Translations under genes and position numbers: made by a program
Notes under the pieces: generated by a model
The model's input: only the letters and a program-made list of their open reading frames with translations
Told to the model about the DNA's origin: nothing
The model's database searches: none
Assembly (NCBI RefSeq): GCF_018449545.1
Contig: NZ_JAAVUR010000002.1
Span: 186,001 to 250,000, forward strand
Length of the DNA stretch: 64,000 bases
DNA from: Granulicella sp. dw_53
Lineage (GTDB): Bacteria; Acidobacteriota; Terriglobia; Terriglobales; Acidobacteriaceae
Reading direction: 5' to 3'
Shown: in pieces, positions 4,107-22,347 of the stretch
Layout of the letters: every line of letters starts with the position of its first letter
Position numbering within the stretch: the first letter of the stretch is position 1

Positions 4107-5426
4107 CTAAGCTCCACGCCTCAAAACCACTACCGTCTCCTGGTGAAACGTCTGCGGAAACATATCCACTAGATGCAGCTCCACCAGCGCGTATCCGCCA
4201 TCTACCAGCACCTTCAGATCCCGCGCCAGCGTAACCGGATCGCACGAGACATACACCAGCTCCGCCGCCTTCAACCGCACCAGCAACTCACAGACATCCG
4301 CCCCCAGCCCCGCACGCGGAGGATCCATCACCACCACCTCCGGCCGCTCCCGCTGAATCACCGTATGGCGCAAAAAATCCACCGTAGAGGCGCAGATCGC
4401 CTGCGTCCTCGGCCCCTTCAGCGTTCCGGCCAGATCCGCCGCCGCCGTCTCGCTACCCTCAACTCCCACCACCCTCTCAAACGCCTTCGCCAGCGCCTTT
4501 GAGAACAAACCCACACCCGCATAAAGATCCCACGCCAGCCGCCCCTCACGCCCCTCTGTCACCAGCCGCACCATCGTATCGATCAAAAAGCGATTCACCT
4601 GGAAGAACCCACCCCGGCTCACCCAGTAGTCGGCCCCTGCCGCACGATACAACAATCCCTCCGCCCCCCAGCTAGCCCCCGCAGCAGGCCGCTCCGTACG
4701 CCGGCTCCGCAGCGCCGACTCCTTTGCCAGAATCGAAACTCCCGCCCCCACCAGCTCCGGCACCACCACTCGCAGCCGCTCACACAACCCCTTCAGATCA
4801 GCCGACAACGCTCCCCGCACAAACAGCGTCATCTGCAGCTTCGTCTCATCGCCATTGGAGAAGAACTCAATCTCCACCGCACCCCGCAGCCACCGCTCAG
4901 CTCCCTTGTCCGTCTCCGCCAGCTTCAACAACGCACTCGCAGCCCGCCACAGCAGCGGAGCCGCAATCGGACACTCCTGTATCGGCAGAAACTCATTGCT
5001 CCCCCGCCGGTTGTATCCCAGCCGCAACGCCCCATCCATCTCCGCAATCCGCAGCCGTATCCTGTTCCGATACCCCCAGAACGCATCTCCATGCGACTGC
5101 ACCTCAGGCAGCTCGACTAGCCCCACCCGCTCCAAACTCTCCCGCAGAATCCCCGCCTTCATCCGCATCTGCGCCGAATACTCTGCATGCTGCAACTGGC
5201 ATCCACCGCACGCACCAAAGTGAACGCACCCCGGCGCAACGCGGTCGCTGGAAGCCTCAATCACCCGCACCAGCTCCGCCCCACCATAGGCATCCTTCTC
5301 TACCGAAAGCTCCGCCTCGACGATCTCCCCCGGCAGCGTGAAAGGCACAAAGACAGCCTTGCCAGCCTCCGCCTGGTGAGCCAGCCCAGCGCCCCCATAG
5401 ACCACCTTTTCTATCTGTAACCTCAT
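4107..5426 (-). CDS. rlmD: 23S rRNA (uracil-5-)-methyltransferase RlmD/RumA family
   Basis: A 439-residue SAM-dependent methyltransferase that makes 5-methyluridine in 23S rRNA (U1939-type). The N-terminal TRAM-like domain (residues 1-55) is followed by four Cys ligands for a [4Fe-4S] cluster (C67, C73, C76 in CVHFGACGGC and C152). Then come the SAM-binding segment DLYAGVGLFS, VVMDPPRAG, and the nucleophile motif SCDPVTLARDL. TrmA and RlmC/RlmD are close relatives; the Fe-S cysteines favour the RlmC/D group over TrmA. The start overlaps the stop of the upstream gene as ATGA, indicating translational coupling. Confidence 0.9.
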   Translation of the reverse strand: MRLQIEKVVYGGAGLAHQAEAGKAVFVPFTLPGEIVEAELSVEKDAYGGAELVRVIEASSDRVAPGCVHFGACGGCQLQHAEYSAQMRMKAGILRESLERVGLVELPEVQSHGDAFWGYRNRIRLRIAEMDGALRLGYNRRGSNEFLPIQECPIAAPLLWRAASALLKLAETDKGAERWLRGAVEIEFFSNGDETKLQMTLFVRGALSADLKGLCERLRVVVPELVGAGVSILAKESALRSRRTERPAAGASWGAEGLLYRAAGADYWVSRGGFFQVNRFLIDTMVRLVTEGREGRLAWDLYAGVGLFSKALAKAFERVVGVEGSETAAADLAGTLKGPRTQAICASTVDFLRHTVIQRERPEVVVMDPPRAGLGADVCELLVRLKAAELVYVSCDPVTLARDLKVLVDGGYALVELHLVDMFPQTFHQETVVVLRRGA

Positions 5427-17545: not shown

Positions 17546-17971
17546 TTAAAGTGCCTTCCAGGGATTTAAAACCGCCACACCAGTGGACACGAAGTCCTCG
17601 ACATTCCGAGTCACCACCGTCATCCCATGGACGAGCGCCGTAGCCGCAATTAGCCCATCCTCAACCGGGTGCGGATCGGGTACGTGAAGCTGAGCGCTCC
17701 GCAAAGCGACCGCAGTATCGATGGCAAGTATCCTTCCGTCGAATGTCGTCAACACATGGTTCTCAAACCAGGACCGAAGAACAGCACCCTGTCTCGCATC
17801 GTGGCGCTCAAGACGCCGAATGCCGAGTTCTAGCTCATGAACGGTGATCGCTGACAGATACAAATCGGACGGTTTCACCGTGCTGGCCCAGGACGCAACA
17901 TTAGGGTCAGCTTGTCCCGTTCTGATCTTGCGAATCTCAGACACAACATTCGTATCCAGCAAAAACATCAT
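17546..17971 (-). CDS. PIN-domain toxin, VapC/FitB type
   Basis: A 141-residue PIN-domain ribonuclease, the toxin of a type II toxin-antitoxin pair. It starts MMFLLDTNVVSEIRK (D6 is the first acidic metal ligand) and contains VHELELGIRRLE, P-VEDGLIAATA and VVTRNVEDF, supplying the other acidic and polar residues. The DTNVVSE and NVEDF forms resemble the FitB branch. Its ATG overlaps the antitoxin stop by four bases, the usual coupled arrangement. The RNA target cannot be read from sequence. Confidence 0.9.
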   Translation of the reverse strand: MMFLLDTNVVSEIRKIRTGQADPNVASWASTVKPSDLYLSAITVHELELGIRRLERHDARQGAVLRSWFENHVLTTFDGRILAIDTAVALRSAQLHVPDPHPVEDGLIAATALVHGMTVVTRNVEDFVSTGVAVLNPWKAL

Positions 17972-18222
17972 GAGAAGTCAGCCACCCGCGGCAACTCCGT
18001 TCTTGGCGGAATCTCCAGTTCAATGTCCTCGGCTCCCGGCATGTAAAGCAAATCTGCAATGCTCGGCTCCGTCCCTTTCATCCGCTCATAGGCCTCAATC
18101 GTTAGCAAGACATGGGCGGGCCGGCCCCGGTCCGTGATAATGACCGGTCCATGGACAGCCGCCTTCTTCGCTCTGCCCGTATCCTGATTAAACTCCCGGC
18201 TAGAAATTGTAGTGATCGCCAT
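17968..18222 (-). CDS. Phd/YefM-type antitoxin
   Basis: An 84-residue antitoxin. Residues 1-50 show the Phd/YefM DNA-binding fold (ISSREFNQDTGRAKKAA, GPVIITDRGRPAHVLLTIEAYERM); the acidic, proline-rich C-terminus (EDIELEIPPRTELP) would wrap the PIN toxin. The pair probably represses its own promoter just upstream, in the AT-rich stretch around 18225-18310. The stop overlaps the toxin start. Confidence 0.9.
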   Translation of the reverse strand: MAITTISSREFNQDTGRAKKAAVHGPVIITDRGRPAHVLLTIEAYERMKGTEPSIADLLYMPGAEDIELEIPPRTELPRVADFS

Positions 18223-18731: not shown

Positions 18732-20144
18732 CTAAGCTCCGGCGATCATCATACCCTCGACCCGCAACGTCGGAGCAGCACTCGCCCCACGGAACACCAG
18801 GTCGTTCCCAATCGCGACGATGTTCTTGTACATGTCCTTCAGGTTCCCGGCGATCGTAATCTCCTCCACCGGATAGGCCAGCTCGCCATTCTCGATCCAC
18901 AGGCCGCTGGCGCCCTGCGAGTAGTCGCCCGTCACCATGTTCACGCCGAAGCCCATCACCTCGGTGACGTACAGGCCGTTCTTCACGTCGCCGATGATCT
19001 GCTCCGGAGTCAGCGTCCCCGGCTCCAGGAAGAAGTTACCCGCCCCAGTCCCAGGGTTCCCGGCCAGTCCGCGCGAGGCGTTCCCGGTCGACTTCATCCC
19101 CAGCTTCCGAGCCGTGTAGGTATTCATCACATAGTTCTTAAGCACGCCACGTTCGACGATCACCGTGCGCCGCGTCGGCAGCCCCTCGCCATCGAAGGGC
19201 GAAGTCCCAAACCCGCCGATCCGCACCGGCCCATCGCTTCCCACCTCGTCGAAGACCATCGTCCCGTCGTCGACGACCGTGATGTTCTCCCCGGCGACCA
19301 TCTCCCCCAACTGCCCGGAGAAGAAGCTCGCATTCCGGTAGATCGAATCTCCCTCGGCGGCGCTGAAGATATTGCCCATAATGCCCTTGGCGATCTCCGG
19401 CGAAAACACCACCGGAGCCTTCTGCGTCTTCACCTGCCGAGCTCCCAGCCGCTTCAGCGTTCTTCGCGCAGCCTCATGCCCAATCTCTTCGGGCGATGCA
19501 AGCCTCCGCGTCGTCCGCGAGCTGGAGAACCAATAGTTCCGCTGCATTCCGCCCTTCTCGTCCACCGCAATCGGCGCAGCCGAGAAGCCGCAGTAGCTTC
19601 GCCTGTACTCGCCCACGAAACCCCGCGAGTTCACCAGGATCTTGTGCGAAGTAGCTGTATCGAAGTCTCCGCCACCCGAGTTCTGAATTCGAGTATCGTA
19701 GGCCATCGCCGCCGCCTCGCAGCGCCGCGCAATCTCGATCCGTTCCGCGGGAGGCTGCTCGTTCACATCCTCGAAGTACAATTTCAGGTCGCCCGGAATC
19801 TGGCCAAACTCCTCCGCCTCCGGCAGCCCTGCGAACGGGTCCTCGCTGGTGATCTTCGCCAGCGTAATCGCCCCATCCACCAGCCGCTGAATCGACTCCG
19901 TTGAAAAGTCCGACGAAGAGGTGCTCGCCGTCCGTTGCCCGATAAAAACCCGCAGCCCAACCGCTCGCGAACCCGACTCCTTCAGCGTCTCTACCTGACC
20001 CAGCCGCACCAGCGCCGAGAACTCATCGCCCTCATAGACGACCGCCTCGGCGTCCGTAGCGCCAGCCTTCAAGGCCTTGGCCAGCACATCGGACGCAAGC
20101 TGTTTCAGATTCGAAGGACTCAGTTTCACTTCAGCAGTTGCCAT
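18732..20144 (-). CDS. pmbA: TldE/PmbA subunit of the TldD/TldE protease
   Basis: Second subunit of the heterodimeric metalloprotease that cleaves unfolded or modified peptides, known in E. coli for microcin B17 maturation and CcdA antitoxin degradation. The sequence has the PmbA fold (ALKAGATDAEAVVYEGDE at the N-terminus; LGARQVKTQKAPVVFSPEIAKGI, NRGLAGNPGTGAGNFFLEPG-like and YSQGASGLWIENGE toward the C-terminus) and lacks the HExxxH motif, as expected for TldE. ATG 20144 is used; an ATG nine bases and a GTG twelve bases upstream are alternatives. It is the last gene of an operon with tldD and two small genes between. Confidence 0.9.
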   Translation of the reverse strand: MATAEVKLSPSNLKQLASDVLAKALKAGATDAEAVVYEGDEFSALVRLGQVETLKESGSRAVGLRVFIGQRTASTSSSDFSTESIQRLVDGAITLAKITSEDPFAGLPEAEEFGQIPGDLKLYFEDVNEQPPAERIEIARRCEAAAMAYDTRIQNSGGGDFDTATSHKILVNSRGFVGEYRRSYCGFSAAPIAVDEKGGMQRNYWFSSSRTTRRLASPEEIGHEAARRTLKRLGARQVKTQKAPVVFSPEIAKGIMGNIFSAAEGDSIYRNASFFSGQLGEMVAGENITVVDDGTMVFDEVGSDGPVRIGGFGTSPFDGEGLPTRRTVIVERGVLKNYVMNTYTARKLGMKSTGNASRGLAGNPGTGAGNFFLEPGTLTPEQIIGDVKNGLYVTEVMGFGVNMVTGDYSQGASGLWIENGELAYPVEEITIAGNLKDMYKNIVAIGNDLVFRGASAAPTLRVEGMMIAGA

Positions 20145-20181
20145 GGAATTCATCACTCAATCCGGGTTGGACCCGCCAGCT

Positions 20182-20490
20182 CTAGCGAACCGGCGTCTGC
20201 GACATGCGCGACTCGCGCCCGTCCGTAGCCTTCAGGAAGTACATTCCCGAAAGACAATACTCCGAGTCGCTCTTCAGCTTGTGCTCGATGTGCGGCGGTG
20301 GAGCGCCCTCTGTATGCCGCCGGAACAGCTTCACCGCGCCGCCGCAGTCCTTGCAGCGAAACTCGGTGTCGTTGTCGACCAGCGCCTCGGCGATCAGCTT
20401 CACCTTCCAGAACGGCTCATAGCCGCCCGTCGCACGAACTCGCTTGCGCTTCACTTCACACTCGTAGAACTTTTCGCGTTCGACTGCCAT
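20182..20490 (-). CDS. small Cys/His zinc-knuckle protein, paralogue 2
   Basis: A 102-residue basic protein. C46 and C49 (FRCKDCGG), H67 and H70 (PPPHIEHK) and C79 (DSEYC) form a C-x2-C ... H ... C pattern like the zinc-binding part of CoiA-type proteins. It aligns without gaps to the neighbouring gene at 20594; I count about 68 of 102 identical residues, highest around GGYEPFWKVK and DTEFRCKDCGG. It lies between the second paralogue and tldE in the tldD-tldE operon. No function is known to me; substrate, chaperone or nucleic-acid-binding partner of TldD/E are all open. Confidence 0.8.
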   Translation of the reverse strand: MAVEREKFYECEVKRKRVRATGGYEPFWKVKLIAEALVDNDTEFRCKDCGGAVKLFRRHTEGAPPPHIEHKLKSDSEYCLSGMYFLKATDGRESRMSQTPVR

Positions 20491-20593
20491 GGTTCACCTC
20501 GGTCTTCTTGGTGCGGTTAGGCATTCTAGGGTTCGCAACGCGGCCGGACAGCATCCATCCAGCCCATTGCAGGACGTACGAAACTTAGGGGTC

Positions 20594-20902
20594 CTACTCG
20601 ACCGGATGCTCGGAGGCCTTCGGCTCACGGCCATCGGTGGCCTTCTTGAACAGCATCCCACCCGCGCAGTACTCGGAGTCGGCGTTCAGCTTGTGCTCCA
20701 CATAGGGTGGAGCTCCGGCCTTGCTGTTGCGGCCCAGCAGCTTCACCTGGCCTCCGCAGTCCTTGCAGCGGAACTCGGTATCACTATCGCTCAGCGCAGT
20801 AGCGACGTTCTTCACCTTCCAGAACGGCTCATACCCTCCGCCTTCCTTTACCCGGCGACGCTTCACTTCTACTTCGTAGATCTTCTCGCGTTCGACGGCC
20901 AT
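20594..20902 (-). CDS. small Cys/His zinc-knuckle protein, paralogue 1
   Basis: A 102-residue paralogue of the gene at 20182, with C46, C49, H70 and C79 conserved while the first His (67) is Tyr. This suggests C46/C49/H70/C79 are the metal ligands. The N-terminus MAVEREK and the C-terminal KATDGRE are shared. Its ATG overlaps the TAA of tldD by one base (TAATG on the coding strand), so translation is coupled to tldD. The tandem copy followed by tldE makes a four-gene unit. Confidence 0.82.
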   Translation of the reverse strand: MAVEREKIYEVEVKRRRVKEGGGYEPFWKVKNVATALSDSDTEFRCKDCGGQVKLLGRNSKAGAPPYVEHKLNADSEYCAGGMLFKKATDGREPKASEHPVE

Positions 20903-22347
20903 TATTGTCCTGTTCCCCCGACCGTCATGCGGTCGAGCTTTACCGTCGGCATCCCGACTCCTACCGGCACGCTCTGACCGGCCTTGCCACAGGTTCCGAT
21001 GCCTTCATCGAGCGCCAGATCGTTGCCGACCATTGACACATACTTCAGCGCCTCCGGTCCATTTCCGATCAACGTCGCGCCCTTCACCGGACGAGTCACC
21101 TTACCGTCTTCGATCAGGTAAGCCTCGCTCGCCGAGAACACAAACTTGCCGTTCGTAATATCCACCTGACCGCCGCCGAAGTTCACCGCATACAAGCCGC
21201 GCTTCACGCTCTTGATGATGTCTTCCGGCATATCGTCGCCGTTCAGCATGTAGGTATTCGTCATGCGAGGCATAGGAATGTGGTGATAGCTCTCCCGCCG
21301 TCCGCTGCCCGTATTCGGCGTGCCCATCAGCCGAGAGCTGAGCTTGTCCGAGAGGTATCCCTTCAGGATTCCGTTCTCGATCAGAACCGTCTCCTGCGTC
21401 GGATTGCCCTCATCGTCCATGTTGATCGAGCCGCGCCGGTTCGGCATCAGACCGTTGTCCACGACCGTTACCTTGCTGCTCGCGACCTGCTGCCCGATCA
21501 TCCCTGCAAACGCCGAGGTCCCCTTACGGTTGAAATCCGCCTCCAGGCCATGCCCAACCGCCTCATGCAGCAGGACTCCAGGCCAGCCCGGACCCAGCAC
21601 CACAGGCATCTCGCCTGCAGGAGCATCGATAGCACCCAATTGCAGGATCGCCGTCCGCGCCGCCTCCCGCGCAAAGTGCTCGGGACTCTTGTCGCCCTCG
21701 AAGAAGTCCAGCGTCACGCGTCCGCCTCCGCCGCTCGTCCCGCGAGCCGTGCTCAAGGCATCCTTCGCGATGACAAAGACATTCAGCCGAGCCAGCGGCT
21801 GCGTATCGCTTGCAAACGTCCCATCCGAGGCAGCCACCAGAATCCGGCGCAGCTCGTCGTTGAATCCAGCCCGCACCTGGGTGATCCGGGTGTCATACGC
21901 CCGCGCCGCAGCGTCCGCTCGTTGGATCAGCTTCAGCTTCTCGGCGATCTCGGCATCGTTCGTCGCACCAGCCACCGGATAGAGCGACTTTGGTGTCTCC
22001 GCATGGCGAAATCCGCTCATCAGCTCCTTCGCCGGTCCGCTGGCGATCAAGGCAGCTGTTCGAGCCGCCCGCAGCAGCCGGTCGCTCGAAAGGTCGTCTG
22101 TATACGCGTATCCCGTGCGTTCACCGGACACCACTCGAATCCCGCAGCCAACGCTGATTCCCTGGCTCGCCGACTTCACCAGCGACTCGTCGATCCCTAA
22201 AGAGGTAGACGTAACTGACTCAAAATAAAGGTCTGCGTAATCCCCACCCGCGGAGAGCGCCTCCCCCAGGCAGCGCTCCATCAATCGTTCCGAAAGACCA
22301 AGTTTCTCGATAAAATAGCGTTTATGGTCCGGTGCGGGTATTGTCAT
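20902..22347 (-). CDS. tldD: TldD zinc metalloprotease subunit
   Basis: Catalytic subunit of the TldD/TldE protease. HEAVGHGLEAD at residues 261-271 is the HExxxH zinc motif with the following Glu/Asp, and GTCGKAGQSVPVGVGMP near 456 supplies the conserved Cys ligand region. At 481 residues it is full length. The domain order (N-terminal alpha/beta, C-terminal beta barrel) is that of the family. It starts the tldD - small - small - tldE operon; in E. coli tldD and pmbA are unlinked, so this arrangement suggests a dedicated complex. Confidence 0.95.
   Translation of the reverse strand: MTIPAPDHKRYFIEKLGLSERLMERCLGEALSAGGDYADLYFESVTSTSLGIDESLVKSASQGISVGCGIRVVSGERTGYAYTDDLSSDRLLRAARTAALIASGPAKELMSGFRHAETPKSLYPVAGATNDAEIAEKLKLIQRADAAARAYDTRITQVRAGFNDELRRILVAASDGTFASDTQPLARLNVFVIAKDALSTARGTSGGGGRVTLDFFEGDKSPEHFAREAARTAILQLGAIDAPAGEMPVVLGPGWPGVLLHEAVGHGLEADFNRKGTSAFAGMIGQQVASSKVTVVDNGLMPNRRGSINMDDEGNPTQETVLIENGILKGYLSDKLSSRLMGTPNTGSGRRESYHHIPMPRMTNTYMLNGDDMPEDIIKSVKRGLYAVNFGGGQVDITNGKFVFSASEAYLIEDGKVTRPVKGATLIGNGPEALKYVSMVGNDLALDEGIGTCGKAGQSVPVGVGMPTVKLDRMTVGGTGQ

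Follow-up and report, generated by a model that had tools for sequence, protein, structure and literature searches.

Small CCHC Proteins Encoded Directly Behind tldD in Acidobacteriaceae as Candidate Accessory Partners of the TldD/TldE Protease

In the acidobacterium Granulicella sp. dw_53, the genes for the two subunits of the TldD/TldE (TldD/E) protease are separated by two genes for small, paralogous proteins of 102 residues, A and B, which together with their homologues are abbreviated here as SM. The genes lie within a 64,000-nucleotide stretch of contig NZ_JAAVUR010000002.1 (positions 186,001 to 250,000), referred to as the window. A first-pass annotation made from the sequence had described a tldD-small-small-tldE order on one strand with a TAATG first junction, and the gene coordinates confirm this, with one base common to the tldD stop and the A start (Table 1). 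TldD/E itself is known; what appears to be new is a candidate TldD/E operon with an undescribed accessory gene. Judged from sequence, SM occur in many acidobacteria directly behind tldD and are a good candidate for an undescribed helper of TldD. We tentatively favor the possibility that SM are accessory partners of the protease, most likely adaptors or gates, and consider it nearly as likely that they are passengers at this site.

Linkage was counted across 63 distinct SM loci (matches of at least 60 bits on long loci, with two duplicates removed and the 3.3-kb loci L001–L031 and L072–L089 outside the count). When the position of SM relative to both protease genes was tabulated, 50 loci, though not all, had the order tldD-SM-tldE on one strand; six had tldD only, two tldE only, and five neither. 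tldD lies upstream of SM on the same strand in 56 of the 63. Three of the tldD-only loci (L051, L058, and L090) are without tldE across 5.5–5.9 kb downstream, and the other three end within 1.8 kb. As for the tldE-only loci, L059 begins where its contig does and could form one split locus together with L060 from the same assembly, and L068 is without tldD within 5.9 kb. The five loci without tld genes are L053, which is an extra copy in Edaphobacter lichenicola M8US30 (the regular pair of that genome is L040), L094 from a fragmented assembly, and L121–L123 from family f24. Weaker matches of 40 bits or less (L111–L120, L125–L127, and L129) are unlinked; one weak match of 29 bits (L124) sits between tldD and tldE, and divergent SM versions only 24–32% identical to B occupy the same slot. 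The first-pass annotation would have been undone by SM lying mostly away from tldD/tldE, but in Acidobacteriaceae they were found nearly always at these genes, and unlinked SM of at least 60 bits are rare within the family (L053, L094).

The spacing of the genes points more specifically to tldD. Gaps were counted with the window included and with the duplicate L092 and the weak L124 excluded, start codons being assigned by a fixed rule that is an approximation. In 45 of 57 loci no more than 25 nt separate the tldD stop from the SM start, and in 21 the two genes overlap or abut; the stop-start overlap is kept across most of the two-copy group. Only one locus (L066) has a gap above 150 nt; its 879 nt hold a PIN-domain protein and a possible antitoxin. 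Gaps above 400 nt are found between tldD and SM in this locus alone (1 of 57), compared to 19 of the 51 loci with both genes for the SM-tldE side, where the inserts vary (e.g., a probable inorganic pyrophosphatase in L093, by eye). The placement of SM “inside the protease pair,” as first worded, is therefore better expressed as attachment to tldD, since inserts often part SM from tldE and almost never from tldD.

Table 1. Features of the tld locus in the window, listed in the direction of transcription.
Feature	Positions	Strand	Remarks
tldD, 481 aa, HEAVGH and late Cys	20902..22347	(-)	catalytic subunit, M103 metalloprotease; Pfam and NCBIfam NF008006
small zinc-type protein A, 102 aa, start overlaps tldD stop (TAATG)	20594..20902	(-)	invariant C46/C49/H70/C79; dN/dS
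spacer A to B, 103 nt	20491..20593	(-)	other two-copy loci: 73–231 nt, but 352 nt in L050
small zinc-type protein B, 102 aa, paralogue of A (67% identical)	20182..20490	(-)	AlphaFold2 model, pLDDT 92.3
tldE/pmbA, 474 aa from GTG 20156	18732..20156	(-)	non-catalytic partner; Pfam and NCBIfam matches

The flanking genes agree with the known TldD/TldE (PmbA) metalloprotease of MEROPS family M103, in which TldD carries HExxxH and a late cysteine, TldE is without HExxxH, and each has three PmbA_TldD Pfam domains. Window TldD contains HEAVGH and ...GTCGKAGQ and passes NCBIfam NF008006 (581.5 bits vs. a cut-off of 513). Window TldE has the three Pfam domains and no HExxxH (by eye), and its best NCBIfam match, NF008268 (PmbA), stays below the cut-off (351.2 bits vs. 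438); past GTG 20156 there are ATG codons at a distance of 1 and 4 codons. What sets such loci apart from the known system is the single or paired small CCHC protein encoded immediately downstream of tldD, which goes unmentioned in the available portions of PMC5810440 and PMC10885120. A search of titles and abstracts on TldD with TldE, acidobacteria, operon or zinc finger, and PmbA neighborhood found no such operon among the matches listed, in keeping with the first-pass annotation, to which no description of an operon with such insertions was known.

The small proteins look like genuine genes under purifying selection. The identity of A and B is close to the roughly 68 of 102 residues first estimated, and the four positions then named as conserved are invariant in three overlapping alignments (24/24, 21/21, and 34/34 rows for C46, C49, H70, and C79). 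This is the Cys/Cys/His/Cys set expected of a zinc-binding knuckle protein, and SM probably bind zinc. Between the window and eight relatives, dN/dS is 0.04–0.24 for A and 0.03–0.19 for B, compared to 0.04–0.15 for TldE and 0.02–0.06 for TldD (seven comparisons, the saturated one with L039 being dropped); several dS values exceed 1 and the ratios are rough. Conservation is spread over the whole protein length and includes a KRRR stretch, and the two pI values are 8.4 and 8.9. In the AlphaFold2 model of B the first strand begins at residue 10, and mean pLDDT is at least 90 in each ten-residue block from residue 11 onward. A fold search of this model against PDB and BFVD returned no match, so the predicted fold appears to be one without a detected solved relative.

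A match to a well-described family would also have spoken against a new system, and no SM member tested reached a curated Pfam or NCBIfam cut-off. The nearest relatives all fall below threshold. The likeness to the zinc part of CoiA that was first suggested holds insofar as SM and CoiA_N (PF25164) share a C-x2-C ... H ... C arrangement (“x-E-H” vs. “HFAH”), with Cys, Cys, and His in register by hhalign, but the support is weak: the best score, 23.0 bits for the tldD-linked relative L105, is 3.3 bits short of the 26.3 cut-off, and the proposed profile-profile comparison gave a probability of 15.6% against a three-sequence profile and 2.3% for a narrower set. CoiA_N is not listed among the Pfam matches of A and B, and the window's own genome has no CoiA_N match at E 0.01. 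CoiA carries a nuclease domain (PMC1189080), which is absent from the 102-residue SM; A and B have no Pfam match to a PD-(D/E)XK nuclease domain. DUF7828 (PF25165) aligns to residues 6–59 of an unlinked relative in L112 at 24.2 bits (cut-off 25.7; A and B score 15.4 and 14.5), and DUF7830 (PF25169) reaches at best 20.6 bits in an unlinked relative (cut-off 27.5); no protein tested passed either cut-off. Among phage families, PHROG 1257, labeled by annotation as “ribosome associated inhibitor A; zinc finger domain,” matches 8 of 24 SM members at E ≤1 (best 1.1e-4), and tblastn with B in 50,697 phage records gave no match.

Outside the window, a search with the A1 profile gave an SM match in 62 of 300 Acidobacteriaceae genomes (17 of 79 genera), and a TldE search matched 288 of the same genomes, some of these possibly through TldD or a more distant relative only. 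In a phylum-wide sample of 396 genomes, 25 have an SM match: 21 in the window's family, three in f24, and one in f25. Both profile searches scored the best 13–16 candidates per genome, and weak SM can be missed. When 84,980 species genomes were scanned for A, 40 loci were found, including three labeled Rhodanobacteraceae and one labeled Verrucomicrobia. The TldD and TldE of these four are 77–87% identical to those of the window (64% for TldE of the Verrucomicrobia-labeled locus), which suggests that the off-phylum metagenome labels may be mistaken. Within the window's own genome, a search with the small protein returned A, B, and a single further match, interrupted by two stops, at E 0.51.

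Several SM-like genes were also seen elsewhere. Besides the regular pair, E. lichenicola M8US30 (L053/L128, genome G337) carries a third SM gene that stands alone, away from tldD/tldE, and whose product is 68% identical to A. Several Acidobacteriaceae genomes (L115, L116, L118, L119, L126, and L129) encode another conserved subfamily of small proteins (MTECEVKVRGRWLPCTLYEAL...MRCKYCHGPV...) that shares the CCHC pattern, with no tld genes within the stretch examined. Distant SM-like frames lie on alphaproteobacterial plasmids (L236, positions 5001–5201, from Sphingobium yanoikuyae; L237; L238) where no gene is annotated, and none of these three regions has tld genes nearby.

Copy number varies among loci. 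Out of 61 loci, 36 have one copy and 25 have two, some of the single copies being near contig ends, and the two-copy state occurs in the Edaphobacter/Granulicella group. First and second copies form mostly two separate clades in the SM tree; the exceptions are the second copies of L048 and L051, which branch apart, and that of L050, a divergent form. In the 25 two-copy loci, counting a truncated second copy in L060 and the divergent one in L050, the last residue is E for 17 of the first copies and R for 20 of the second. A and B are separate lasting lineages in this group. Duplication was considered as a general key to function and rejected, with 36 of 61 loci single-copy; for the same reason the heteromeric function first read from the duplication is not borne out as stated, a two-protein complex not being required.

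How SM might act can be framed by what has been published on the protease. By one report, 60% of bacterial genomes contain homologues of TldD/E, whose general function it calls elusive (PMC5810440). TldD/E binds peptides inside its shell with no sequence preference and admits only unfolded N-termini, with an estimated need for at least 15 unfolded residues (PMC5810440; PMC10885120). Access is gated by the channel, whose narrow entrance has been offered to explain the missing sequence specificity, and cleavage is thought to proceed from the N-terminus (PMC5810440). A gate or adaptor would make sense for such a channel-gated, sequence-nonspecific enzyme, and the close or overlapping genes and the retention of SM next to tldD are in line with a partner that adjusts access. 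We infer that SM would be translated in step with TldD, would fold around a C-x2-C-x20-H-x8-C metal site, and would act on or beside TldD as an adaptor or gate choosing unfolded peptides for the TldD channel. Because SM are frequently lost without a visible mark on TldD/E, they would tune the protease toward some clade-specific substrate rather than be required for activity. If this is true, a protein whose synthesis accompanies that of TldD would help to probe how substrates are admitted in ordinary soil bacteria. It is doubtful, though conceivable, that SM represent the first subunits dedicated to an adaptor or gate role in a TldD/E protease, metal-folded, co-translated with TldD, with a fold that has no detected solved relative, and duplicated in Edaphobacter/Granulicella into two specialized forms (A mostly ending in E, B mostly in R) that give two substrate settings.

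Nearly as likely as a partnership is that an independent small zinc protein entered the family ancestor behind tldD, uses the tldD transcript and translation, and has stayed by shared descent. Several observations weigh against a partner and toward this explanation. The order NucS-DinB-(GH25)-tldD-SM-tldE-UvrC-Rpe (gene names being by-eye readings of window proteins) is syntenic across the family, which means that much of the SM-tldD linkage reflects shared descent and that linkage, however well conserved, is by itself less telling than it seems; the loci were moreover collected via SM, biasing the comparison toward SM. DinB or NucS is kept in 42 of 50 SM loci and in 22 of 25 loci without SM, and UvrC in 36 of 44 SM loci. 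Homologues also exist without nearby tld genes, in f24 (L121–L123), among the weaker matches (L111–L120, L125–L127, L129), and in the three alphaproteobacterial plasmid regions; within the family, SM are without tldD/tldE in the examined stretches of L053 and L094, and tldD is missing from L068 over the distance given above. Were SM simply passengers, they would still serve as a cautionary example that, where a neighborhood rearranges slowly, genes can stay linked without being partners.

The history of gain and loss tells a similar story. A tldD+tldE tree covering 81 loci, 48 carrying SM and 33 hand-chosen ones lacking it, requires at least 13 changes of the SM label, 10 of them forced by well-supported branches, and SM are found in both deep halves. 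The simplest reading is an old origin with repeated loss; the tree does not separate gain from loss. SM is dispensable for keeping TldD/E, and TldD/E without SM are no more diverged than those with SM at similar UvrC distance (by eye). SM distances follow TldE (partial r 0.48) better than TldD (0.20), contrary to the prediction for a partner of TldD only. We also examined 40 tldE regions from genomes in which no SM had been found at tldD, in most cases sampling each genus once or a few times. The SM profile found none across these regions (five show no tldD and two only a piece of it). In the 35 with both genes, the two tldD pieces included, the gap is below 400 nt in 22 and longer or gene-filled in 13. 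It looks as if the tldD-tldE gap readily accepts inserts, which again suits a passenger. Unrelated genes seen by eye between tldD and tldE in such loci (L160, L162, L163, L172, L174, L175, and L199) include PIN toxin-like, SGNH hydrolase-like, and probable pyrophosphatase genes, among others.

In favor of a partnership, SM stay at tldD in several loci whose surroundings have changed. Among the 50 SM loci whose upstream sequence extends 3.5 kb or more, 8 lack both DinB and NucS, and SM is still at tldD; the corresponding count for loci without SM is 3 of 25. Of the 44 whose sequence continues for 2 kb or more past tldE, 8 lack UvrC, and tldD-SM is kept. Two of the eight loci without DinB and NucS, L055 and L060, retain a GH25-like neighbor; outside these two, outer neighbors were lost and SM kept in at least three lineages on the tldD+tldE tree (L034/L038; L093/L095; L103), and in L034, L093, L095, and L103 the tested neighbors are gone on both sides. 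A passenger also accounts poorly for the strong skew of inserts toward the tldE side and for the stop-start overlap that most two-copy loci keep. It is unlikely that SM are instead free-standing CoiA_N/DUF7828-like zinc units acting on DNA or RNA, for example as operon autoregulators, with no contact to the protease. The sub-threshold scores of SM relatives for CoiA_N, DUF7828, and DUF7830, the KRRR stretch and the pI values, and the integrase-like or nuclease genes near some unlinked relatives (by eye or annotation) are consistent with such a role, but nucleic-acid binding by CoiA_N is itself presumed, the fold search, having no match at all, had none to a nucleic-acid-binding protein, and as an explanation of the stop-start coupling an autoregulator has no advantage over a partner. 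Very improbable is the dedicated substrate that the first-pass annotation had entertained, in which TldD/E trims the SM N-terminus as it does with peptide precursors. A small protein encoded next to a protease thought to cut from the N-terminus (PMC5810440) would suit this role; the model, however, is compact from about residue 10, against the at least 15 unfolded N-terminal residues estimated in that study, which would make SM a poor substrate as folded, and conservation along the entire protein leaves no cleavable leader.

Two further observations concern the tld genes and their surroundings. A TldE search of the window's own genome gave two matches at E 1e-8, the second of which is unplaced and presumably tldD. 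Just downstream of tldE in the window, at 17546–18222 (-), a PIN gene resembling VapC is accompanied by an antitoxin gene of Phd/VapB-like type (by eye), and L032 has the same pair. Since mutations in tldD/tldE are reported to affect the stability of the CcdA41 antitoxin (PMC5810440), toxin-antitoxin genes at tld loci may deserve counting; matches were seen in the window, L032, L066, and L162, and also in the short locus L089, which has a like arrangement.

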